From Streptomyces sp. Je 1-332 (lineage in GTDB: Bacteria; Actinomycetota; Actinomycetes; Streptomycetales; Streptomycetaceae), in NCBI RefSeq assembly GCF_040730185.1, contig NZ_CP160402.1:7564001-7628000 (forward strand): 64,000 nt of DNA, in the 5' to 3' direction. Under the pieces are notes generated by a model. That model was given only the letters and a program-made list of their open reading frames with translations, ran no database searches and was not told the origin of the DNA. The position numbers and the translations under genes are program-made. Shown here piece after piece: positions 2,707 to 41,449 of this stretch (the first letter of the stretch is position 1; each line of letters begins with the position of its first letter).

Positions 2707-3971
2707 GGTGTGATCTCCCAGTGGTGCGCGGCGAGGAAGTCCGCCACGGCTCGGTCGACCGCGGACTGGTCCGTGCCCGTGGCGCGTACGACCCCGAGGA
2801 AGTCGCGGTTCGTGCCGTGGAGTTCGTGGTACTCGCCGACTTCGCGCAGTGGCCGGTACGTCAAGTGCACTCCGCCCGCCGTTGCTTCGGTCCGGCCCGG
2901 CGCGGCCGTCAGCGTTCCGGTACTCCGCGCGCACGGGTAGTCGAGCCGTGCCCGGCCGTCCGACCGTGCGCCCAGGTCCGACGGGAGCGGCTCGCCCAGA
3001 TGCGTACGGAGGATGTGCTCGAAGAGCGGTATGCCCAGGAGCTGGGCGAGGAGCAGATCACACTGGTCGCCGATGGCACGGTAGTTGACCTCGATGAGCC
3101 GGGCTCGCCCCGCCGCCACCACGAACTCCGTGTGGCAGGCCCCGAATCCCACGCCCAGCGCGTCCAGTTGGGCAAGGACCTGAGCCACCACCGCATCCGG
3201 GTGCGCGGGGACGAACGTCATCCGCTCTTCAATGAAGTACGGCGGCGGTGACACCTCCGTACGGAAGCCCCCGAGTACATGCCTGACGCGGCCGTCGCCG
3301 AGCGTCTCCAAGGTGCACAACTCCCCGGCGAGGTACTCCTCGATCACCAGCGCAGCCCCCGGCCGACGCGCCTGGATCTCCGCGCATCGCCGCACCAGCT
3401 GCTCCGGTCCTTCGACCAGCACCACGTCTTCGCTCGCCACACCCTCCCGCGGCTTGACCACGCAGGGGAACGGGACGTCGAGGGTCGTGAGTCCGGCCGG
3501 GTCCCGGCCCGCGGGGAGTTCGGCCGACCAGACCGCGTCGGCGCCCGCAGCCGCGAGATGGCGCCGCATCTGCGCCTTGTCCTTGGTGCGCAGCGCGGTC
3601 CGCCAGTCCTTCCCGGGCAGCCCGAAGTACTCGGCGGCGAGGGCCGCTTGAGTCTGCAGGTGGTCGCTGTTGGTGAAGATCGCACCGGGGGAGTGATGGG
3701 CGGCTATGCGGCTGATGACGGCTCGGAAATCGCGTACGTCGCACTCCAGGATCTCCAGGGATCCGAGGATCTCCCCGGGGAGGCCGCCCTGATGTGCCTC
3801 CGGGTGATCGGTGAGAAGCGTGACGTCGAGGCCCAGCTCGCGTGCGGCGGGCAGAAAGCCTTCGGTTACCGAGTCGGTGGGGTTGCGGGCTAGGACGTAC
3901 AGCCGCAGGTGCGGGGGGAATCGTCGCGCGGAGGGGCTGCCTGGCGGGACGGCCCGAACGATCTTGGACAC
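2703..3971 (-). CDS. ATP-grasp ligase of the siderophore locus (PvsA-like)
   Basis: A 422-residue ATP-grasp protein (carboxylate-amine ligase superfamily) that would form an amide bond through an acyl phosphate. It has an N-terminal Rossmann-like part (LYVLARNP), the central ATP-grasp lysine strand (PFPCVVKPREGVASEDV) and the metal-binding FVVAAGRARLIEVNYRAIGDQ segment. The frame is open to a TTG at 4010, but that TTG is the -35 hexamer TTGACA of the promoter, so it cannot be the start. I chose GTG at 3971, next to the predicted transcription start and without a Shine-Dalgarno, so the mRNA may be leaderless. It is the first gene of the siderophore operon. ATP-grasp plus two IucA/IucC enzymes is the vibrioferrin (pvsA, B, D) combination. 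Confidence 0.88.
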   Translation of the reverse strand: MSKIVRAVPPGSPSARRFPPHLRLYVLARNPTDSVTEGFLPAARELGLDVTLLTDHPEAHQGGLPGEILGSLEILECDVRDFRAVISRIAAHHSPGAIFTNSDHLQTQAALAAEYFGLPGKDWRTALRTKDKAQMRRHLAAAGADAVWSAELPAGRDPAGLTTLDVPFPCVVKPREGVASEDVVLVEGPEQLVRRCAEIQARRPGAALVIEEYLAGELCTLETLGDGRVRHVLGGFRTEVSPPPYFIEERMTFVPAHPDAVVAQVLAQLDALGVGFGACHTEFVVAAGRARLIEVNYRAIGDQCDLLLAQLLGIPLFEHILRTHLGEPLPSDLGARSDGRARLDYPCARSTGTLTAAPGRTEATAGGVHLTYRPLREVGEYHELHGTNRDFLGVVRATGTDQSAVDRAVADFLAAHHWEITP

Positions 3972-3979
3972 GGGGTGAG

Positions 3980-4010
3980 AGTTTAGGTTAGGTATGCCTA
4001 AGGATGTCAA
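3980..4010 (-). promoter_or_regulatory. Siderophore operon promoter
   Basis: On the minus strand TTGACA (4010-4005) is followed, after a 19-base spacer, by TAAACT (3985-3980). The spacer is almost filled by an iron box, so a bound repressor would block RNA polymerase. The expected start of transcription falls within a few bases of the GTG chosen for the ATP-grasp gene. Confidence 0.55.
3983..4001. promoter_or_regulatory. Iron box (DtxR/IdeR/DmdR1-type operator)
   Basis: TTAGGTTAGGTATGCCTAA closely matches the 19-bp actinobacterial iron-box consensus (TTAGGTTAGGCTAACCTAA type). It overlaps the promoter of the siderophore genes, so iron-loaded DmdR/IdeR repressor should shut the operon off. 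Confidence 0.88.
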
Positions 4011-4087
4011 CTCACCGTGAGGGGCAGATCACTCGCGACGGCGCGGTCCGCGACGCGCCGGGGACGATGCGGCAAGTTGAAGAGAAA

Positions 4088-4106
4088 TAAGGTAAGCCTT
4101 ACCTAG
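4088..4106. promoter_or_regulatory. Iron box upstream of the FhuF-like gene
   Basis: TAAGGTAAGCCTTACCTAG is a near-perfect palindrome matching the iron-box consensus at all but the second and last positions. It lies 60 bases upstream of the FhuF-like start, so both divergent units of the locus carry their own iron operator. Confidence 0.85.
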
Positions 4107-4165
4107 TCGGTGGCGGACGAGTCCGCCGCCGAACGACCGTCGGACCTGCCCTCCAAGGAGTACGA

Positions 4166-5062
4166 GTGCCGCTGCCCGTGGCCCCGGACCTGGCGCCGAA
4201 CGCCACCGCCCTGAGCCCCGCCGCCCTGCTCGCCGCGACCTATCGGCGGCTGGCCGCGCACTGCGAGACGCTCGCTGTCACGGTGGCGAAATCTGGCTCG
4301 CCCGCGGGTCAAGGGTGGGTCACCGGACGGGAACTGACGTCGAATCAGGAAACTCTGGCAGCCTTCGTCGCGGCTGAGGCCGCACGCATCCAGTCCGGCC
4401 ACGACCACACCCCGCGCCCCGACGTCGCCGCGTCCCGCGCCCTGCACGGCTACCTCTGGTCCGTCTGCCTGCTGATGAGCGGCGCCTGGTACCTGGAGCG
4501 GCGCGTGCCGCGGATCCACCCCGATGACGTACGTGTCCATCTGGAGTCCGGCGCCTTCGAGATCGCCCCCGGCCCGTTCGCCTGCTTCCCGGACGACCCG
4601 GCGGCCGGGCTCCCCGGAACGCGGGTCCTGGCCGACGAGGAGTCACTGCGCGCCGAGCTCCGCTCCGCGGTCGTCGCACACATGCGGCCGCTGCTCGCGG
4701 CCATGGGGCCACTACTGCGGCGCGGACAGCGGGCGCTCTGGGGCATGGCGGGCGACGATCTCATCTCCGGGATCTGGTACCTGGGGCGCATGCTCGGCCA
4801 GGAGGACGAGGCGCTGCGAGCGGTGGACGCCCTGCTCCCCGGACCCGTGGCACCCTTTCCCGGCGGCGCCGCCTTCCGCCATCTGACGACCCGTGACGGC
4901 GAGCGCCACCCGACCCGCACCCGTCTCGGCTGCTGCCTCTACTACACGATCCGTGCCGCCGATGCGTGCGGCACCTGCCCGCGCGTCTGCGACGCGGAAC
5001 GGCTGCGGAGGATCGAGGCCGACAACACCTCGGCCGACGTGCCCCCGGAAGCCGGGCGGTGA
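4166..5062 (+). CDS. FhuF-like ferric-siderophore reductase, [2Fe-2S]
   Basis: A 298-residue protein with the FhuF signature at its C terminus: Cys256-Cys257, ten residues, Cys268, two residues, Cys271, a motif that binds an unusual [2Fe-2S] cluster. FhuF proteins reduce iron(III) in imported siderophores so that it can be released in the cytoplasm. The start is GTG with AAGGAG five bases upstream. The gene is divergent from the siderophore synthesis operon and has its own iron box, which fits a role in using the siderophore made next door. No receptor lipoprotein or ABC importer is within the window on this side. Confidence 0.88.
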   Translation: MPLPVAPDLAPNATALSPAALLAATYRRLAAHCETLAVTVAKSGSPAGQGWVTGRELTSNQETLAAFVAAEAARIQSGHDHTPRPDVAASRALHGYLWSVCLLMSGAWYLERRVPRIHPDDVRVHLESGAFEIAPGPFACFPDDPAAGLPGTRVLADEESLRAELRSAVVAHMRPLLAAMGPLLRRGQRALWGMAGDDLISGIWYLGRMLGQEDEALRAVDALLPGPVAPFPGGAAFRHLTTRDGERHPTRTRLGCCLYYTIRAADACGTCPRVCDAERLRRIEADNTSADVPPEAGR

Positions 5063-32046: not shown

Positions 32047-32283
32047 ATGCCAAGACCTTCCGGCTTCACCTATGAGCAGCACTCCGACGCCAGCGTGACG
32101 ATCACTCACCACGGACGCGCGGCGGGCACGCTGCGCGGTGCGCGCGCCGAGAAGTTCCTCGCCGAGGTCGAGTCGGGCGATGCCCAACTGGTGATGGCGC
32201 GCTGGACCGGCGCGTACAAGCACGGCAACGAGCGCACGGCTCGCAACCACCCGCGCAACCGGCGCCAGGCGCCCCGCGTCTAA
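32047..32283 (+). CDS. Small conserved hypothetical protein
   Basis: A 78-residue soluble protein with a basic C-terminal tail. The first 55 residues look like a compact alpha/beta domain (SVTITHHGRAAGTLRGARAEKFLAEVESGD). No recognised domain. The gene is convergent with the Rrf2 gene and their stop codons overlap by four bases. Third-position GC is high, in favour of a real gene. Confidence 0.65.
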   Translation: MPRPSGFTYEQHSDASVTITHHGRAAGTLRGARAEKFLAEVESGDAQLVMARWTGAYKHGNERTARNHPRNRRQAPRV

Positions 32284-32738
32284 GGATTCGTCCAGGCCGC
32301 GGGATCCTCGGCCAGCACCGTGACCGGCGTGGGAAGTCGGGCGCCCGCGACATCGGCGAGGGACACGCCCTCCAGGATCTGGCGGACGTTCGCCCGCAGC
32401 GCGATCCACAGCGGCAGCAGTGATTCCGCGGGCCCGCTGTAGGCGAGCTCCGGAGGGCGTACTCCGCGTACCGACACCAAGGGGCCCTCCACGACGCGGA
32501 TGACGTCCGCGATGCTGATGTCGCCCGAGGGCCGGGCCAGGCGGTAGCCGCCGTTGCCGCCGCGCTGACTGAGGACGAGACCGCCGCGCCGCATGTCGTT
32601 GAGGATGCCCTCGAGGAACTTGTGCGGGATCTCCTGTGCGTCGGCGATGGCCTCGGCCTTCAGTGGCCCGTCGTCCTGGCACGCGGCGAGTTGCAGCGCG
32701 GCACGTACCGCGTAGTCCGCCCTGGCTGAGATCCGCAT
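32280..32738 (-). CDS. Rrf2-family transcriptional regulator
   Basis: A 152-residue Rrf2 regulator. The winged HTH is at residues 1-75 (ISARADYAVRAALQLAA... IPHKFLEGILNDMRRGGLVLSQRGGNGGYRLARP). The region where IscR/NsrR carry three cluster-binding cysteines has none here, so it is more like CymR-type sulfur regulators than Fe-S sensors. ATG at 32738 is the typical family start (MRISARADYAVRA). It may act at the palindrome near 31840. Confidence 0.87.
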   Translation of the reverse strand: MRISARADYAVRAALQLAACQDDGPLKAEAIADAQEIPHKFLEGILNDMRRGGLVLSQRGGNGGYRLARPSGDISIADVIRVVEGPLVSVRGVRPPELAYSGPAESLLPLWIALRANVRQILEGVSLADVAGARLPTPVTVLAEDPAAWTNP

Positions 32739-33200
32739 GGCCGCAATTATGACGCCCCGTGCGGTCCCGGCGGCTACCGGGCGGCCGACGCCCGCGTCCC
32801 GGCCCCGGTGTCCCCTTCGGCCATGATTCGGCACGCCTTCAATAAATCTGCACATCGAATGCGCAGCCCAGTCACGCCATTCGGCGAATACTCCACGCGA
32901 AGCGCTTGTGTATTGACCACAGAACTTTCGCTTTGGTGCGAGAGTGTCCGCTTTGGTGGAGGGAGTCCTTCCGCGTACGGGATTTCCGTCTGTGAAGCTT
33001 GTGAAGGAGCTGCTCCTGCGCGGTGAACATGCCTGCACGCAGCGGTGATTCGATGCCGCGAGCACCGTCGGACGTCACGTCGTCGATTGGATGTACGAGC
33101 TGCGAACGTGCTTTGATCCTGGCCACCGCGGAATTCGCACAGCAGGTTCCGCAGTGTTGGAAACACCTTTGCGACATTCATGAGAAGGGCAGCTCACACC
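32739..33200. other. Long intergenic leader region of the peptide-export locus
   Basis: 462 bp separate the Rrf2 start from the peptide gene, unusually long here and visibly less GC-rich than its flanks. It holds a 10-bp direct repeat (32929-32958) and a TTGACC (32913-32918). It also holds a GTGTT-gga-AACAC dyad 35 bp before the peptide ATG. Open frames in it have poor codon bias and were not accepted as genes. It probably carries the promoter and activator sites of the downstream operon. Confidence 0.6.
32929..32958 (+). promoter_or_regulatory. Direct repeat CGCTTTGGTG x2, 20-bp period
   Basis: Two identical 10-mers start at 32929 and 32949, about two DNA turns apart, as expected for a regulator binding one face of the helix. 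This is the most operator-like feature upstream of the peptide/ABC genes. Confidence 0.45.
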
Positions 33201-33428
33201 ATGAACTACACCCCCCAGGTCGAGACCCTCGAGATTTCCGACGCCGACCTCGACAACGTCTCCGGTGGCCTCGTCGCCGGTGTCGCGGGCAACGTCACCA
33301 GCACCGTTGACTCCATCGCCCCCGTCTCGGGCGTCGTCGGCGGCGTCGTCGGCACCGTCGAGGGCGTGACCGGTCTCAACACCGGCGCCGTCACGGGCCT
33401 GGCCTCCGGCCTGACCGCTGGTCTCTGA
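33201..33428 (+). CDS. Double-glycine leader peptide precursor (bacteriocin-like, Gly/Val-rich core)
   Basis: A 75-residue precursor. Residues 1-23 form a double-glycine leader (LEISDADLDNVSGG), with hydrophobic residues at -4, -7 and -12 and Gly-Gly at -2/-1, the C39-peptidase cleavage signature. The predicted 52-residue core (LVAGVAGNV... to LTAGL) is about half Gly, Val and Ala. It has no Cys, Lys, Arg or aromatic residue, two acidic residues, and small residues every three to four positions. ATG at 33201 has a weak GAAGGG 11 bases upstream; an in-frame ATG at 33180 would add seven residues. It is followed by HlyD and two NHLM-type ABC genes, so it is the probable cargo. Confidence 0.85.
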   Translation: MNYTPQVETLEISDADLDNVSGGLVAGVAGNVTSTVDSIAPVSGVVGGVVGTVEGVTGLNTGAVTGLASGLTAGL

Positions 33429-33456
33429 GCTGAAGCTCACTGAGACGCCATGATTC

Positions 33457-33489
33457 GTGAGCCCCGGAACCATCGGTTCCGGGGCTCAC
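33457..33489 (+). terminator. Strong intercistronic hairpin after the precursor gene
   Basis: A perfect 15-bp stem (left GTGAGCCCCGGAACC, right its complement) with a 3-base loop lies 28 bp after the precursor stop and 32 bp before the HlyD start. There is no U-tract. It may act as a partial terminator or 3' stabiliser, giving more peptide mRNA than transporter mRNA. Confidence 0.8.
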
Positions 33490-33521
33490 GGACGCCCCAG
33501 GCAAAGTAAGGGAAACGTTCC

Positions 33522-34324
33522 GTGCAGTTCCGCCAACAGGCCCTGTCCAAGCTGCAGTCGCCCGAGGAACTCGACCTGCCGGTGCGTTACGCCCGACCCC
33601 AGGGCCTGCTCGTGCTCGCCGTCACCGTCGTCGTCATGGCCGCCGCGAGCGTCTGGGCCGTGACCGGCTCGGTCTCCTCCACGCTCCGCGCACCCGGCAT
33701 CCTCACCCACGGCCAGGGCAGTTACGTCCTGCAGAGCCCCGTCACCGGGCAGGTGACGCGTGTCCTCGCCGAAGAGGGAAAGCGGGTCGCCGCCGGCGCC
33801 CCCGTGCTCAAGGTCCGTACGGACCAGGGCGACAAGGTCGTGCGCTCCATCGCCGCCGGCCGCGTCAGCACACTGGTCGCCCGGATCGGCACCGTCGTCA
33901 CCACCGGCGCGGACGTCGCGACCGTCGAGCGCGTGTCGGGCAGCGACGACCCCCTCCTCGCGATGCTCTACGTCCCGGCCGACAGCGCGGCCACCGTCCC
34001 CGTCGGCGCCTCGGTGGACCTCACGGTCCAGTCCGTGCCCACGCAGGAGTACGGCATGCTGCGCGGCCGTGTGAAGGCGATCGGCCGCACCGCGCAGAGC
34101 GAACAGAAGATCAGCGGCTTCCTCGGCGACAAGGAACTGGCCGGGCAGTTCACCAAGGACGGGCCACCGGTCGGCGTCCTCGTCTCGCTCGAACGCTCGT
34201 CGGCCACCAAGTCCGGCTACGCCTGGTCGAACGCGGGCGGCCCGCCCTTCGCGCTCGACTCCATGACCCTGGCCACCGGCGCCTTCCACCTCGCCGAGCA
34301 GCGCCCGATCGATTGGCTGCTTCC

Positions 34325-34328
<4 letters not shown>
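33522..34328 (+). CDS. HlyD-like adaptor of NHLM-type bacteriocin export
   Basis: A 268-residue membrane-fusion-like protein. After a short cytoplasmic part there is one transmembrane helix (residues about 28-50), then a barrel-sandwich (lipoyl-like) hairpin (SPVTGQVTRVLAEEGKRVAAGAPVLKVRT) and a beta-barrel domain. It lacks the long coiled-coil hairpin of Gram-negative HlyD proteins, as expected where there is no outer membrane. The start is GTG with AAGGGAAAC upstream; the stop overlaps the ABC1 start as GTGA. It should bridge the ABC exporters and the cell wall. Confidence 0.88.
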
Positions 34329-36610
<2,282 letters not shown>

Positions 36611-36611
36611 G

Positions 36612-39470
36612 GTGACCTCGGTTCCAGAGCAGTACTCCTCCTATACGGGTGACTCGGTCGCCGCCGCCTTCGGCGCGCTCGGCACCCCGGCCGACTGCAC
36701 GGGTCTGCGCAGCGTGCACCTCGAAGGCCCGCAGGTCCTCTGGCTCGTCGTGGCCGGGGCCCTCGACCTCTTCGCGGTCGACGCCGTGCAGCAGGGCCAC
36801 TGGCACTTCCTCGGCCGCCTGGAACCGGGCACCCTGCTCCTCGGCCCCGTCGAAGGCCCCCAGCACACCCTCGTCGGACGCCCGCTCCAGGGCTGCGAGC
36901 TGCGCCGCATACCGCTGCGTGAGCTGTACCGCCCCGACTACGGCGACACCTGGGCCTACGAACAGCAGTACCCCAGTCAGTACGACACGCAGGACCAGGC
37001 CCTGAGCCTCCTGGAGCACGCCTTCGCGCTCGGCATCGGACGCAGCCACCGGGTCCTGTTCGAGGCGCCGCTCGACGGCCGCACCATGGCCGACGACGTG
37101 GTGACGGACGACGACATCCTCTGGATGCCGGTGGCGCCGGGCAGCGTGCAGTACGGCTCCGCCTACAGCTCGGAGGCCACCGGCGATCTGCTCGTCGACG
37201 CCGCCATGTGGCAGCGCATGGTCAACCAGCAGTACCGGCTGCTCTCCACGCTCGACCGCTGGATCGAACGCCTGGAGCGGGCCCACGAGGACCGCACCGC
37301 CGCCGGCATCAAGGCGGGCGAGACGGTCCGCGAGCAGGCCGACAGGACCCTCATCGCCTCCATCGGCCGCTCCGGCAGGGGCGGCGCGCGCCGCACCGAG
37401 TCGCGCGGCGGTGACGACGCGACGTACGCGGCCTGCCGTCTGGTCGCCGACGCGGCGGGCATCACACTGTCCGGCCTTGCGGACGGCGGCGCCGTCAGCG
37501 ACCGGATCGACCCGGTGGAACAGATCGCGGTGGCCTCGCGCGTCCGCACCCGCGCCGTGCGGCTCGACGGGCGCTGGTGGCGCGAGAACACCGGCCCCCT
37601 CGTGGGACACCGCGCGGCGAGCGGGGCGCCGGTCGCGCTGCTGTGGCGGCGCGGCGGCTACGAGTCCGTGCACCCCACCTCCGGGCGGCGCACGCGCGTC
37701 GACAAGACCAACGCGGAGGAGTTCGAACCACAGGCGGTCATGTTCTACCGCCCGCTGCCGGAGCGGTCGTTGACGCCGTGGCGGCTGTTCCGCTTCAGCC
37801 TGCGGGGCACCGGCGGTGACGTACGCAATCTGGCGATCGCCGGTCTGGTGACGGTCGCGATCGGGGCGCTGGTGCCGATCGCGACGGGGCAGGTGCTCGG
37901 CGTGTTCGTCCCGAACGGCGAGAAGAGCCTCATCGTCCAGGTGTCCCTGGCGGTGATGATCACGAGCATCGTCTCCGCGGCCTTCATGCTCCTCCAGAAC
38001 CTCACCATCCTCCGGATGGAGGGCCGTATGGAGAGCACCCTCCAACCAGCGGTCTGGGACCGCCTGTTGAACCTCCCCACCCGCTTCTTCGCCTCGCGCT
38101 CGACGGGTGAGCTGGCGAGCGCCGCGATGGGTGTCAGCGCGATCCGCCGCGTGCTTTCGGGCATCGGCCCGGTCGCGCTGCAGGCGGGCACGATCGGCGC
38201 GATGAACCTGGTCCTGCTGCTGCTCTACAGCGTCCCGCTGGCGCTTGCCGCCCTGGGGATGCTGGTGGTGATCGCGGCGGTGTTCCTGACCCTGGGCCTG
38301 TGGGAACTGCGCTGGCAGCGCCGCCTGGTCGAGCTCTCCAACAAGCTCAACAACCAGGCGTTCCAGACGCTGCGCGGCCTGCCCAAACTCCGCGTCGCCG
38401 GGGCGGAGAGCTTCGCGTACGCGGCGTGGGCGGGGGAGTTCGCACGCAGCCGGGAGCTGCAACAACGCGCGGGCCGCATCAAGAACGTCACGACGGTCCT
38501 CAACTCGGTCTACCTCCCCCTCTGCACGCTCATCATGTTCATCCTCCTCGCGGGCCCGGCCCGCGGCAGCCTCACGGCGGGGGAGTTCCTCACCTTCAGC
38601 ACGGCGGTGACGATGCTCCTGACGTCCGTCACGCAGCTGACCGGCGCGCTGATCTCGGCGGCCGCCGTCCTTCCGATGTTCGAGCAGATCAAGCCGGTGC
38701 TCGACGCAGCCCCGGAGGTAAAGGGAGCGAGCACGCAGCCGGGCGAGCTGCAGGGCGAGATCGAGGCCCGCGGGGTGTCCTTCCGCTACACGGACGACGG
38801 TCCGCTGGTCCTGGACGACGTGACCCTGTCCATCCACCCCGGCGAGTTCGTCGCGGTCGTCGGCCCCAGCGGCTGCGGCAAGTCGACGCTGCTCCGCCTC
38901 CTCATCGGCTTCGACAAGCCCGTCGCGGGCAGCGTCCTCTACGACGGCCAGGACCTCTCCGCCCTCGACCAGGCGGCCGTCCGCCGTCAGTGCGGCGTCG
39001 TCCTGCAGAACGCGCAGCCGCTCACGGGATCGATCCTGGACTGCATCTGCGGCGCCGAGACGTTCACGCAGGAGGAGGCCTGGGAGGCCGCGGAGATGGC
39101 TGGCCTCGCCGAGGACATCAAGCGCATGCCGATGGGCCTGCACACGATGATCTCCGGCGGCGGAGCGGTCTCCGGAGGCCAGCGCCAGCGCCTGATGATC
39201 GCCCAGGCCCTGATCCGCCGCCCCCGCGTCCTGTTCTTCGACGAGGCGACCAGCGCCCTGGACAACGAGACGCAACGCACGGTCATCGACAGCACCCGGG
39301 CCCTGAACGCCACCCGCGTCGTCATCGCCCACCGCCTCTCGACGGTCATGGACGCGGACCGCGTCATCGTCATGTCGGACGGACGAATCGTCCAACAGGG
39401 GCCGCCCGCACACTTGTTGGCGGACACTGGCGGGCGGCTGCATGAGTTGGTGCGGCGGCAGATGCAGTGA
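36612..39470 (+). CDS. Second ABC exporter with large N-terminal domain (NHLM ABC2 type)
   Basis: A 952-residue ABC protein of the NHLM ABC2 pattern. The first 400 or so residues are soluble and start with a cyclic-nucleotide-binding-like fold (GLRSVHLEGPQVLWLVVAGALDLFAV). About six transmembrane helices (410-700) follow. The ATPase has GPSGCGKST, VSGGQRQRLMIAQAL, VLFFDEATSALD and an AHRLST loop. There is no C39 domain. The family always accompanies the peptidase-bearing ABC1 protein and may form a heterodimer with it. One base separates it from ABC1. Confidence 0.93.
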   Translation: MTSVPEQYSSYTGDSVAAAFGALGTPADCTGLRSVHLEGPQVLWLVVAGALDLFAVDAVQQGHWHFLGRLEPGTLLLGPVEGPQHTLVGRPLQGCELRRIPLRELYRPDYGDTWAYEQQYPSQYDTQDQALSLLEHAFALGIGRSHRVLFEAPLDGRTMADDVVTDDDILWMPVAPGSVQYGSAYSSEATGDLLVDAAMWQRMVNQQYRLLSTLDRWIERLERAHEDRTAAGIKAGETVREQADRTLIASIGRSGRGGARRTESRGGDDATYAACRLVADAAGITLSGLADGGAVSDRIDPVEQIAVASRVRTRAVRLDGRWWRENTGPLVGHRAASGAPVALLWRRGGYESVHPTSGRRTRVDKTNAEEFEPQAVMFYRPLPERSLTPWRLFRFSLRGTGGDVRNLAIAGLVTVAIGALVPIATGQVLGVFVPNGEKSLIVQVSLAVMITSIVSAAFMLLQNLTILRMEGRMESTLQPAVWDRLLNLPTRFFASRSTGELASAAMGVSAIRRVLSGIGPVALQAGTIGAMNLVLLLLYSVPLALAALGMLVVIAAVFLTLGLWELRWQRRLVELSNKLNNQAFQTLRGLPKLRVAGAESFAYAAWAGEFARSRELQQRAGRIKNVTTVLNSVYLPLCTLIMFILLAGPARGSLTAGEFLTFSTAVTMLLTSVTQLTGALISAAAVLPMFEQIKPVLDAAPEVKGASTQPGELQGEIEARGVSFRYTDDGPLVLDDVTLSIHPGEFVAVVGPSGCGKSTLLRLLIGFDKPVAGSVLYDGQDLSALDQAAVRRQCGVVLQNAQPLTGSILDCICGAETFTQEEAWEAAEMAGLAEDIKRMPMGLHTMISGGGAVSGGQRQRLMIAQALIRRPRVLFFDEATSALDNETQRTVIDSTRALNATRVVIAHRLSTVMDADRVIVMSDGRIVQQGPPAHLLADTGGRLHELVRRQMQ

Positions 39471-39493: not shown

Positions 39494-40675
39494 TCAGTCG
39501 CCGGGGCCCGCCGCGTACCGCCAGAAGTCCCGCATCAGTTCGGGGAAGCTGGGCCCGCCCATCTGCAACTGGCTGAACATGATCGTGACCGCGCCGGTGG
39601 ACGGTGTGATGTGCGCCGTCGTGCCCGTGCCGCCCACCCAGCCGTAGCGTCCCGGCACGGTCCAGGGCTCGACGGCCTCGACGTCCACCGAGCCGCCGAA
39701 GCCCCAGCCCATGCCTTCGAGGAACAGACCGGCGGACTTCCGCTCGGGTTCGGTGAGTTGATTGGTCGTCATCCGCCGCACGGAGTCCGGTGTGAGAAGC
39801 CGGCGTCCACCCGCCGCGCCCTCGGCGAGCAGCATCCGTCCGAAGGCCAGCCAGTCGTCGACCGTCGACACGAGACCGCCGGCGCCGGAGGGGAACGGAG
39901 GCAGCGTGCTCCACTGACCGTCGGGTGTGTCGAGCAGTTCGAGGCCGCTGCCGGGATCGCGCTCGGGTCCGGCCTCCGGACCGGCCGCGTAGTAGCTGGT
40001 GAACCGGTCGAGTTTGCCCGGCGGCACCGAGAACGCGGTGTCGGTCATCCCCAGCGGCTCGAACAGCCGCTCAGCGAGGAACTCGGGCAGCGGCGCCCCC
40101 GTGACCCGGGAGATCAGTACGCCCTGGAGGTCGGAACTGAGGTTGTACAGCCAGCCGTCGCCGGGCTGGTGCAGGAGCGGGATCCGGGACAGCGCCGCCA
40201 TCCACGCGTCCGGCGCGGGAACGGCCTGCGGCTGCGGCGGCCCCTGCTTCAGCTCGCTGAAGAGCGGTGCGAGCGCGGGCAGTGAGAAGTCGGACGGGAA
40301 GCCGTATCCGGTACGGGATGCGAGCAGATGGAAGACGGTGATGGGCCGGACCGCCGGGACGACGTCGTCCACCGGCGAGGTCGGTGTGCGGACGACGCTC
40401 GGCGAGGCCAGCTCCGGGAGCCACTCGCCGACCGGGTCGTCCAGCGCGATGCGGCCCTCCTCGACCAGCATCATGACGGCCGCGGCGACGATGGGTTTGG
40501 TCAGCGACGCGATACGGAAGATCGAGTCCCTAGCCATCGGGGCGGTGCCCTCGACGTCGACGGACCCGACGGCCGCGACCTCCTCGGTCCCGTCACCGCG
40601 GGCCACCAGGCCCACCGCTCCCGCCACGGAGCTGTTGCTGATGTGCGTCTCCAGAGTTTTTCGCAGATCGGCCAT
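39494..40675 (-). CDS. Beta-lactamase-family serine hydrolase (class C/EstB-like)
   Basis: A 393-residue serine hydrolase of the beta-lactamase/penicillin-binding fold. The nucleophile motif is SLTK near residue 57 and the YxN motif is YNLS near 177. The third motif is probably the GGTG near the C terminus. No signal peptide, so an intracellular esterase or peptidase is likelier than a true beta-lactamase. It is convergent with the ABC2 gene (24 bp) and not obviously part of the peptide system. Confidence 0.88.
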   Translation of the reverse strand: MADLRKTLETHISNSSVAGAVGLVARGDGTEEVAAVGSVDVEGTAPMARDSIFRIASLTKPIVAAAVMMLVEEGRIALDDPVGEWLPELASPSVVRTPTSPVDDVVPAVRPITVFHLLASRTGYGFPSDFSLPALAPLFSELKQGPPQPQAVPAPDAWMAALSRIPLLHQPGDGWLYNLSSDLQGVLISRVTGAPLPEFLAERLFEPLGMTDTAFSVPPGKLDRFTSYYAAGPEAGPERDPGSGLELLDTPDGQWSTLPPFPSGAGGLVSTVDDWLAFGRMLLAEGAAGGRRLLTPDSVRRMTTNQLTEPERKSAGLFLEGMGWGFGGSVDVEAVEPWTVPGRYGWVGGTGTTAHITPSTGAVTIMFSQLQMGGPSFPELMRDFWRYAAGPGD

Positions 40676-40870: not shown

Positions 40871-41386
40871 TCAGCCCCCGATGTTCACATCGATACAGGC
40901 GTAGAAGGCGTTGGCGGTGTCGGCGATGTTCCACACCGCGAGCACCTTCTGCTTGCCGCTCAGCCCGCCGAAGTCGACGTTGTGCGTGACGGTCTCGCCC
41001 GGCTGGGCGCCTCCGTCGTCGACCTCGGCGATCTTGTTGCCACCGACGAAGTACTGCCAGGTGCTGGTGCTGTGACGTGCCGTCAGCTTCCAGCTGAACT
41101 CGTGAGACGAGCCGACGTCGGTGACCTTCCAGCCCTTGCTGTCGTCGTCGAGATCGGCGAACCGTGCGTTGCCGCCGCTGCACGTCGTCTGCCCCTTGGG
41201 GCCTTCGACGCTCTGCGGTTCATTGGTGATCTCTCCGCAGGACACGGTGCCGGCCGCGCACTGTGCCTGACGGCTCGGGGGCGAGTTGACGTAGCCGTGC
41301 GCGCTGGCCGGGGTGACGGAGGCCAGGACGAGCACGGGCGCGAATGCCGCGCCCAGAGCGGCTGCCAGCTTCTGCTTCTTGTTCAT
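40871..41386 (-). CDS. Secreted AA10 lytic polysaccharide monooxygenase
   Basis: A 171-residue copper enzyme. The signal peptide (residues 1-29) ends ASA, so the mature protein starts with the copper-binding His in HGYVNSPPSR. The second His is in GSSHEFSW(K). The single-domain AA10 fold ends FYACIDVNIGG. Such proteins oxidatively cut crystalline chitin or cellulose. A DasR-like site about 65 bp upstream points to chitin use. The ATG has AGAGGGAA upstream; an earlier in-frame start is unlikely. Confidence 0.94.
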   Translation of the reverse strand: MNKKQKLAAALGAAFAPVLVLASVTPASAHGYVNSPPSRQAQCAAGTVSCGEITNEPQSVEGPKGQTTCSGGNARFADLDDDSKGWKVTDVGSSHEFSWKLTARHSTSTWQYFVGGNKIAEVDDGGAQPGETVTHNVDFGGLSGKQKVLAVWNIADTANAFYACIDVNIGG

Positions 41387-41449
41387 CTCTGTTCCCTCTG
41401 AGTGGGGGGAGGAGGGGCGAGAGACAACCGGGCGCCTCGGTCGACTCAT

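Follow-up and report, generated by a model that had tools for sequence, protein, structure and literature searches.

A four-gene cassette of many Streptomyces that apparently produces and exports a short, plain and very hydrophobic peptide

The window analysed here is a stretch of 64,000 nucleotides from Streptomyces sp. Je 1-332 (contig NZ_CP160402.1, positions 7,564,001 to 7,628,000), the genome of which is one contig of 8.27 Mb. At positions 33201-39470 of its forward strand, four genes in a row encode a 75-aa double-glycine (GG) precursor, a short HlyD-like adaptor, an ATP-binding cassette (ABC) protein with a C39 peptidase domain (ABC1) and a second ABC protein (ABC2). This cassette is carried by many Streptomyces, and its apparent function is the production and export of a peptide that is short, plain and very hydrophobic. 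Taken together, the evidence makes it likely that an NHLM exporter serves a co-regulated and partly dispersed family of unmodified secreted peptides, and it points to a little-studied peptide family that would be overlooked by routine protein surveys.

An original prediction, made from the letters of the window, had placed the four genes in this order with the last three coupled, and these coordinates were confirmed: ABC1 starts with a GTG inside the stop codon of the HlyD-like gene (GTGA), and ABC2 begins one base past the ABC1 stop codon. The prediction had also assigned the three exporter proteins to the NHLM/NHLP export set. ABC1 scored 1013.9 bits against TIGR03796 (cut-off 853.3) and 123.8 bits against the Pfam family Peptidase_C39 (PF03412), and ABC2 scored 904.5 bits against TIGR03797 (cut-off 709.4); neither protein was placed in an unrelated exporter family. 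ABC1 contains the Gln, Cys, His and Asp residues that matter in C39 peptidases, and both ABC proteins contain the ABC motif sets. The adaptor scored 144.1 bits against TIGR03794, under the cut-off of 156.2. Thus, the assignment held for ABC1 and ABC2, and the adaptor, a short form, narrowly missed its cut-off. In an AlphaFold2 (AF2) model with a predicted local distance difference test score (pLDDT) of 84.5, the adaptor has one membrane helix and beta domains without a long hairpin. A Foldseek search with this model returned the membrane-fusion fold, the top PDB match being BesA (TM-score about 0.5), a hairpin-less fusion protein as well.

At E 0.001, neither NCBIfam nor Pfam had a family that matched the precursor and, therefore, no NHLP or Nif11 leader was recognised. 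Double-glycine leaders are defined by the positions -12, -7 and -4 together with GG at -2/-1. Among 18 leaders, we found Ile, Val, Leu or Met at -12, an invariant Leu at -7, Val or Ile at -4 and an invariant GG, and the window precursor has a leader of 23 residues that ends in SGG. With a short leader, hydrophobic residues at -12, -7 and -4, GG at -2/-1 and an adjoining C39 exporter, the precursor is of the double-glycine (class II) type, as had been proposed.

To describe the core, we took 79 sequences of exporter-linked precursors and dropped three in which the match did not start at the start codon. In the remaining 76 linked cores, 77% of the residues are Val, Gly, Thr, Leu or Ala, Thr and Ser are numerous, the net charge is -1 to -4 in every sequence, and Cys, Lys, Arg, His, Phe, Trp and Tyr are absent from all 76. 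The grand average of hydropathy (GRAVY) of the core is 1.08, and its only charges are acidic. For the window core without modification, the calculated neutral monoisotopic mass is 4620.49 Da. The predicted glycine zipper was borne out: the window core contains seven GxxxG motifs, where shuffling of its residues gives 2.37 (P 0.0007), and in 75 relatives, with the window excluded, the mean is 3.25 as opposed to 1.25 in shuffles. Since none of the 76 linked cores contains Cys, a lanthionine is excluded for them, and no LanB/LanM-type enzyme was found among 38 window proteins scanned. Trypsin does not cut peptides without Lys and Arg, and peptides without aromatic residues do not absorb at 280 nm; accordingly, a linked core is left uncut by trypsin and is invisible at 280 nm. 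A slowly evolving core was ruled out, as the core changes faster than the leader and the exporter. At 16 loci, the leader had a ratio of nonsynonymous to synonymous substitutions (dN/dS) of 0.28 and the core one of 0.83, as compared with 0.38 in the HlyD-like adaptor and 0.15 in ABC1; these are Nei-Gojobori figures from few sequences of GC-rich genomes that are probably inflated, and we use only the contrast between leader and core.

We sampled 150 congeners and 14 control genomes. TIGR03797 matched at E 1e-150 in 110 of the congeners (106 over the cut-off) and in none of the controls, and the precursor matched at E 0.001 in 101 of the 150 congeners, with 138 matches in all. In 95 of the 110 exporter-positive genomes, the ABC2 match is preceded at 3.9-5.0 kb by a precursor with the same orientation. 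In the other 15, the precursor match is on a different contig in six (G081, G008, G002, G102, G112, G119), the leader was seen by profile alone in seven, and G120 and G038 make up the rest. We ran the gene-order comparison that the original prediction had suggested, and the order of the four genes is identical in each of the 20 relatives that were fetched; at L033, the precursor was placed by the precursor search. Outside the cassette, no flanking family occurs in more than six of 21 loci (frames of at least 90 aa, 2.9-9.9 kb per side). Moreover, 38 window proteins, covering about 7.3-56 kb of a window that holds 52 heuristic genes, had no LanM, YcaO or radical-SAM Pfam match. Thus, the scans showed no modification enzyme next to the locus, as had been claimed, no conserved flanking enzyme came to light at equivalent loci, and an unmodified hydrophobic core is most likely.

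Of 80 related loci, 79 are from Streptomyces and one is from Actinacidiphila. In a sample of the class, the leader was detected in 19 of 22 genomes of the genus and in none of 224 others; the same 19 genomes own the exporter, and one extra over-cut-off exporter (G232) belongs to another family. In a sample of the family, in which the leader only was counted, 128 of 249 genomes and nine of 17 genera had it. Restriction of the peptide family to one genus was ruled out by the nine genera and the Actinacidiphila locus.

A leader profile (A1) applied at E 0.01 gave 165 matches in 108 of the 150 congeners, 57 of them beyond one per genome and spread over 48 genomes. These 108 genomes are among the 110 with the exporter, and none of the 40 exporter-negative congeners had a match (hypergeometric P 8.5e-9, which ignores phylogeny). 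The two leader-less exporter genomes were dismissed as counter-examples: in G120 the contig starts inside ABC1, and in G038 the exporter is divergent and lies beside a SagB gene. We placed 100 of the 150 genomes on an rpoB tree, a one-gene tree with midpoint rooting that included all 40 genomes without the exporter and 60 of the 110 with it, picked to include many bearers of exporter-unlinked precursors. The exporter-less genomes form 17 clades on this tree, none with a leader match, and Fitch parsimony counts 16 state changes. For five of the 17 clades, the nearest exporter-positive genome has at least two leader matches and, therefore, the exporter and scattered precursors appear to be lost together repeatedly.

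Of the 138 precursor matches, 43 (from 36 genomes) have no ABC2 gene downstream of them; contig breaks account for at most six of the 43. We fetched 20 of these unlinked (orphan) precursors, and all 20 are open frames with leader and GG. The orphan leader reads M(N/S/A)xxPxxxxxEISDAxLDxVSGG or near, and the cores behind it are of several clearly distinct kinds. No homologous exporter flanks the 20 orphans within about 5.3-6.7 kb per side (2.5 kb on one side at L073); weak ABC-ATPase matches of 26-35% identity flank two of them. In group B, which comprises nine loci with cores like LSPHA..GPTAVS..DVLAQV, the precursor DNA alone contributes frames of at least 60 aa that are common to the nine. 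The group B core has a dN/dS of 1.78, with the proportion of nonsynonymous differences (pN) above that of synonymous differences (pS), and the leader has a dN/dS of 0.49. The locus had been described as self-contained; this is correct for the cassette but not for the system, since many relatives have further precursors with the same leader and the same upstream element elsewhere in the genome, of which the window genome has no clear case. At L368 (G145), in one of the genomes with more than one leader match, two different leader peptides lie in tandem before the exporter, at about 3621-4500; such a tandem is a possible source state of the scattered copies.

The linked and orphan precursors share an upstream element. 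An alignment of 21 linked upstream regions contains GTG.C boxes, then GTGAAG and, nearest the gene, TGG-N17/18-TGCTTTGATCC. In the 20 orphans, TGCTTTGATCC is present exactly in nine and with at most one mismatch in 16, and the pattern TGG-N17/18-TGnTT(T/A)(G/C)ATC, which was loosened after the orphans had been seen, is present in 19. In the whole 8.27 Mb genome of the window, TGCTTTGATCC occurs as a single copy, before the precursor. Across the 150 congeners, GTGCTTTGATCC has 105 sites in 76 genomes, while a reversed control pattern has three sites. Of the 105 sites, 83 precede a same-strand leader match by 40-140 bp, and 12 of these 83 belong to exporter-unlinked precursors (a hand count with contig breaks excluded). 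The element may be the promoter of an alternative sigma factor.

For protein families of this kind, docking of the leader, cleavage after GG and export by ABC1, ABC2 and the adaptor are established. In the window genome, the class II leader would be recognised and dock on the C39 domain of ABC1, and this domain would cut after GG; ABC1, ABC2 and the hairpin-less adaptor would then move the unmodified, anionic, Val/Gly/Thr-rich core of 52 residues out of the monoderm cell. One substrate was found in this genome. Across Streptomycetaceae, the exporter would most likely act as a hub for solitary precursors with the same leader and the same promoter-like element. On balance, we favour the idea of a peptide-secretion regulon of this family, in which an enzyme-stripped NHLM exporter serves dispersed and fast-diversifying unmodified hydrophobic peptides that have their own promoter copies and are gained and lost with the exporter.

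Several observations weigh against an exporter that serves a co-regulated, dispersed peptide family. All evidence is computational, and the peptide, its cleavage and its transcript are predictions from sequence. The enzyme-free state is based on scans of the loci, and a genome-wide search for a remote modification enzyme was not made. Profile A1 detects only the linked gene in the window genome, the next matches having E 0.045 and 0.56; because this genome is without a clear orphan, the hub role is visible in relatives only. Several orphan cores contain His, Lys, Tyr, Phe or a single Cys and, therefore, the bare composition is claimed for linked cores only. The four orphans of group E carry TGCTTACATCC or near, which is two to three mismatches from the element. 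The element could also be shared simply because orphan and linked precursors descend from a common ancestor, with no need for co-regulation today. Finally, 22 of the 105 GTGCTTTGATCC sites (20 of them fetched) are not before a leader gene: six precede a 2-oxoglutarate (2OG)-oxygenase-type frame (two degraded-looking) and one a major facilitator superfamily (MFS) gene, five share one other context, three are in exporter-less genomes, five are single cases and two were left unfetched. The 2OG-Fe(II)-oxygenase-type frames are at L167, L171, L176, L178, L179 and L183, in six genomes, and the MFS gene is at L172. A Pfam run on one frame of each type (L176, which was confirmed, and L172) was made, and TGG-N17 is kept in six of these seven sites (not in L171). 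These oxygenase- and MFS-linked sites may mark further members of the regulon.

The original prediction had left a bacteriocin, a surface-active peptide and a signal side by side as roles for the exported peptide. We lean towards a surface-acting or signalling peptide and find it rather doubtful that killing is the main role; simple killing is disfavoured because there is no conserved immunity gene, no positive charge and a wide distribution. A classical unmodified class II bacteriocin, the core of which permeabilises the membranes of rival actinomycetes, would account for the GG leader next to a C39 exporter, for the glycine zipper and for the fast core evolution (dN/dS of 0.83, and of 1.78 in orphan group B), which fits bacteriocins too. 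These figures, however, carry the inflation noted above, the 76 linked cores are anionic rather than cationic, most of the sampled congeners have the linked gene, and no conserved immunity-like gene accompanies the 21 linked loci (frames of at least 90 aa) or the nine group B loci (at least 60 aa), although a shorter gene would escape these scans. Of the three proposed roles, that of a classical bacteriocin was weakened by the analysis, and we consider it rather doubtful. The peptide could instead act as a structural or surface-active material by assembling on the surface of hyphae, in the manner of chaplins, rodlins or SapB. The very hydrophobic Val/Gly/Thr/Leu/Ala-rich core with acidic charges only, the absence of conserved genes for enzymes or immunity and the presence of the leader in nine of 17 genera would suit such a peptide, and we regard this reading as possible, but the core varies fast, the exporter is missing from 17 clades of the rpoB tree, and the AF2 model of the precursor consists of helices predicted with low confidence (pLDDT 64). 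A secreted peptide for signalling or kin recognition, with several cores per genome and a postulated receptor of its own, is favoured by the conserved leader in front of fast-changing cores and by the same upstream element on dispersed precursors, and it resembles the pneumococcal GG peptides that share ComAB/BlpAB according to PMC7595303. Nevertheless, conserved neighbours of the loci include neither a receptor nor a two-component pair, and cores of about 45-55 residues are both long and hydrophobic for a pheromone, which leaves this reading doubtful. Fast cores behind conserved leaders would fit signalling, strain marking or surface material.

Two further readings concern the peptide itself and the orphans. 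A modified product, that is, a ribosomally synthesised and post-translationally modified peptide (RiPP) the enzyme of which is encoded elsewhere in the genome, is suggested by sister exporters that adjoin YcaO/SagD or SagB, by the many Thr and Ser residues of the core and by the 2OG-oxygenase-type frame that has the same promoter-like element in six genomes. The lack of Cys in the 76 linked cores excludes lanthionine and thiazole but not oxazole or hydroxylation; moreover, no enzyme is conserved in the flanks and the oxygenase-linked element occurs in only six of 150 genomes, making a modified product improbable. That the scattered precursors are decaying copies, neither expressed nor exported, would agree with the lack of a homologous exporter nearby, with the persistence that paralogues of the linked gene can have as relics and with a group B core in which pN is above pS. 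We consider such decay very improbable, given that all 20 fetched orphans are open with leader and GG, that leaders are constrained (as the group B value shows), that the upstream element is kept and that the 40 exporter-less genomes are all without a leader match.

The exporter has divergent actinobacterial relatives in G232, G239, G038 and G284 (L364, L365, L366 and L373, respectively), with ABC1 proteins 48-54% identical to that of the cassette and homologous HlyD proteins 34-37% identical; among the matches listed, ABC2 is 41-44% identical at L364 and L365. YcaO/SagD lie beside L364 and L365, and SagB beside L364, L366 and L373, whereas the cassette in the window has no such enzymes. Two of four small open reading frames (ORFs) scanned, at L365 and L373, had NHLP-leader matches below the cut-off, and no leader of the window kind was among the matches listed for the four loci. 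A 42-aa ORF with another GG-type leader lies on the other strand at L366. In an ABC1 tree, the cassette type forms a clade with a support of 1.0 that joins L364 next (0.977), the supports being taken from an unrooted tree. Because the cassette clade groups with exporters that neighbour YcaO/SagB, and the cassette loci themselves are without thiazole/oxazole enzymes and without NHLP leaders, we infer that the cassette is probably an NHLM exporter of the thiazole/oxazole kind that was reused for plain peptides, a direction that depends on the rooting.

The cassette resembles the NHLM/NHLP export set in that a C39 ABC1 and a peptidase-less ABC2 pass the family cut-offs and have an HlyD-like partner in the same operon; it differs in its 23-aa leader without NCBIfam match, in the lack of a visible enzyme, in the sub-cut-off HlyD and in the element shared with scattered precursors. 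Haft et al. 2010 (PMC2887384) describe the three-gene set with NHLP and Nif11 leaders and state that NHLP/N11P precursors may lie far from the exporter; thus, one exporter with scattered substrates is not a new idea in kind. In pneumococcus, as described in PMC7595303, the C39 exporters ComAB/BlpAB likewise serve several GG peptides, some from other loci, and confirmed bacteriocins are co-transcribed with immunity genes. Cyanobacterial bacteriocin clusters (PMC3140520) have diverse precursors and combine HlyD with a C39 ABC protein and, in some groups, a second ABC protein, and their NHLP and N11P precursors are mostly negatively charged. They differ from the cassette in having NHLP/N11P or other leaders, in that precursors were sought around the clusters, and in LanM or other enzymes in some groups. 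Roseocin-type loci pair NHLP leaders with LanM, unlike the window locus (PMC10027976). PMC13047742 describes a RiPP-like Streptomyces gene, labelled 'type A2 lantipeptide', the region of which includes a Peptidase_C39 gene. This gene may belong to the window peptide family, and the label would then be misleading, because Cys-less cores cannot form lanthionines. No paper describing the window peptide family was found among the titles and abstract starts of the matches listed, most subscription papers being outside the search. As far as this search shows, four points are new: a short class II leader combined with such an exporter set, the lack of modification enzymes, an upstream element common to the precursors, and genomes in which exporter and leaders are missing together. 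To our knowledge, the ComAB/BlpAB exporter works without a second, ABC2-type ABC protein.

Streptomyces have been mined mainly for enzyme-made products, and RiPP mining leans on modification enzymes. If the widespread exporter has enzyme-free scattered substrates as proposed, they would form a class of secreted peptides that is seen only in part by such mining and is missed by standard proteomics, given that trypsin-based proteomics and detection at 280 nm would not show linked cores. With the leader and the upstream element in hand, substrates could easily be listed for any genome. The cassette also hints at how plain peptides can come to be served by a former RiPP exporter.

Features of the cassette and its upstream region, in window coordinates
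Feature	Coordinates	Strand	Description
Upstream box GTGTCCGCTTTGG	32944..32956	+	GTG.C....T kept across 21 aligned exporter-linked upstream regions; TGTCC in 14/20 orphan upstream regions
Upstream box TGTGAAGGAG	33000..33009	+	GTGAAG kept across 21 aligned linked loci; in 13/20 orphan upstream regions
Promoter-like element TGG-N18-TGCTTTGATCC	33088..33119	+	GTGCTTTGATCC part at 33108-33119; TGCTTTGATCC single copy in window
Ribosome-binding-like GAGAAGGG preceding precursor ATG	33182..33189	+	GAAGG at same place in 21/21 linked loci; GAAGGG at most 30 bp from start in 19/20 orphans
Precursor gene, 75 aa, ATG at 33201	33201..33428	+	Leader 1-23 (...EISDADLDNVSGG), GG = residues 22-23, core 24-75 (52 aa)
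GC-rich stem-loop between precursor and HlyD genes	33457..33489	+	Perfect 15-bp stem, 3-base loop, without T run; attenuator- or terminator-like
HlyD-like membrane-fusion adaptor, 268 aa	33522..34328	+	One transmembrane helix, no alpha hairpin in AF2 model
ABC1, C39 peptidase + permease + ATPase	34325..36610	+	TIGR03796, Peptidase_C39, motifs
ABC2, long N-terminal region + permease + ATPase	36612..39470	+	TIGR03797, Pfam, ABC motifs; no peptidase match

The gap between the precursor and HlyD genes is more stably folded than its mononucleotide shuffles in the window (z -3.8) and in all of 16 loci (z -2.2 to -7.1). The stem-loop in this gap would fit a higher level of precursor mRNA than of exporter mRNA and might restrain exporter expression. 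Scans of the window for tRNA genes and Rfam families returned no matches.

An Rrf2-family regulator is encoded at 32280-32738 on the reverse strand, divergent from the precursor. Rrf2 was ruled out as regulator of the system: among the matches listed, one of 20 loci (L033) had a long match, about 1.8 kb from the precursor, and a second locus had a match of 24 residues. Just 3' of the cassette, and not seen travelling with it, lie genes for a beta-lactamase-fold hydrolase (39494-40675) and an LPMO_10 domain protein (40871-41449), both on the reverse strand.

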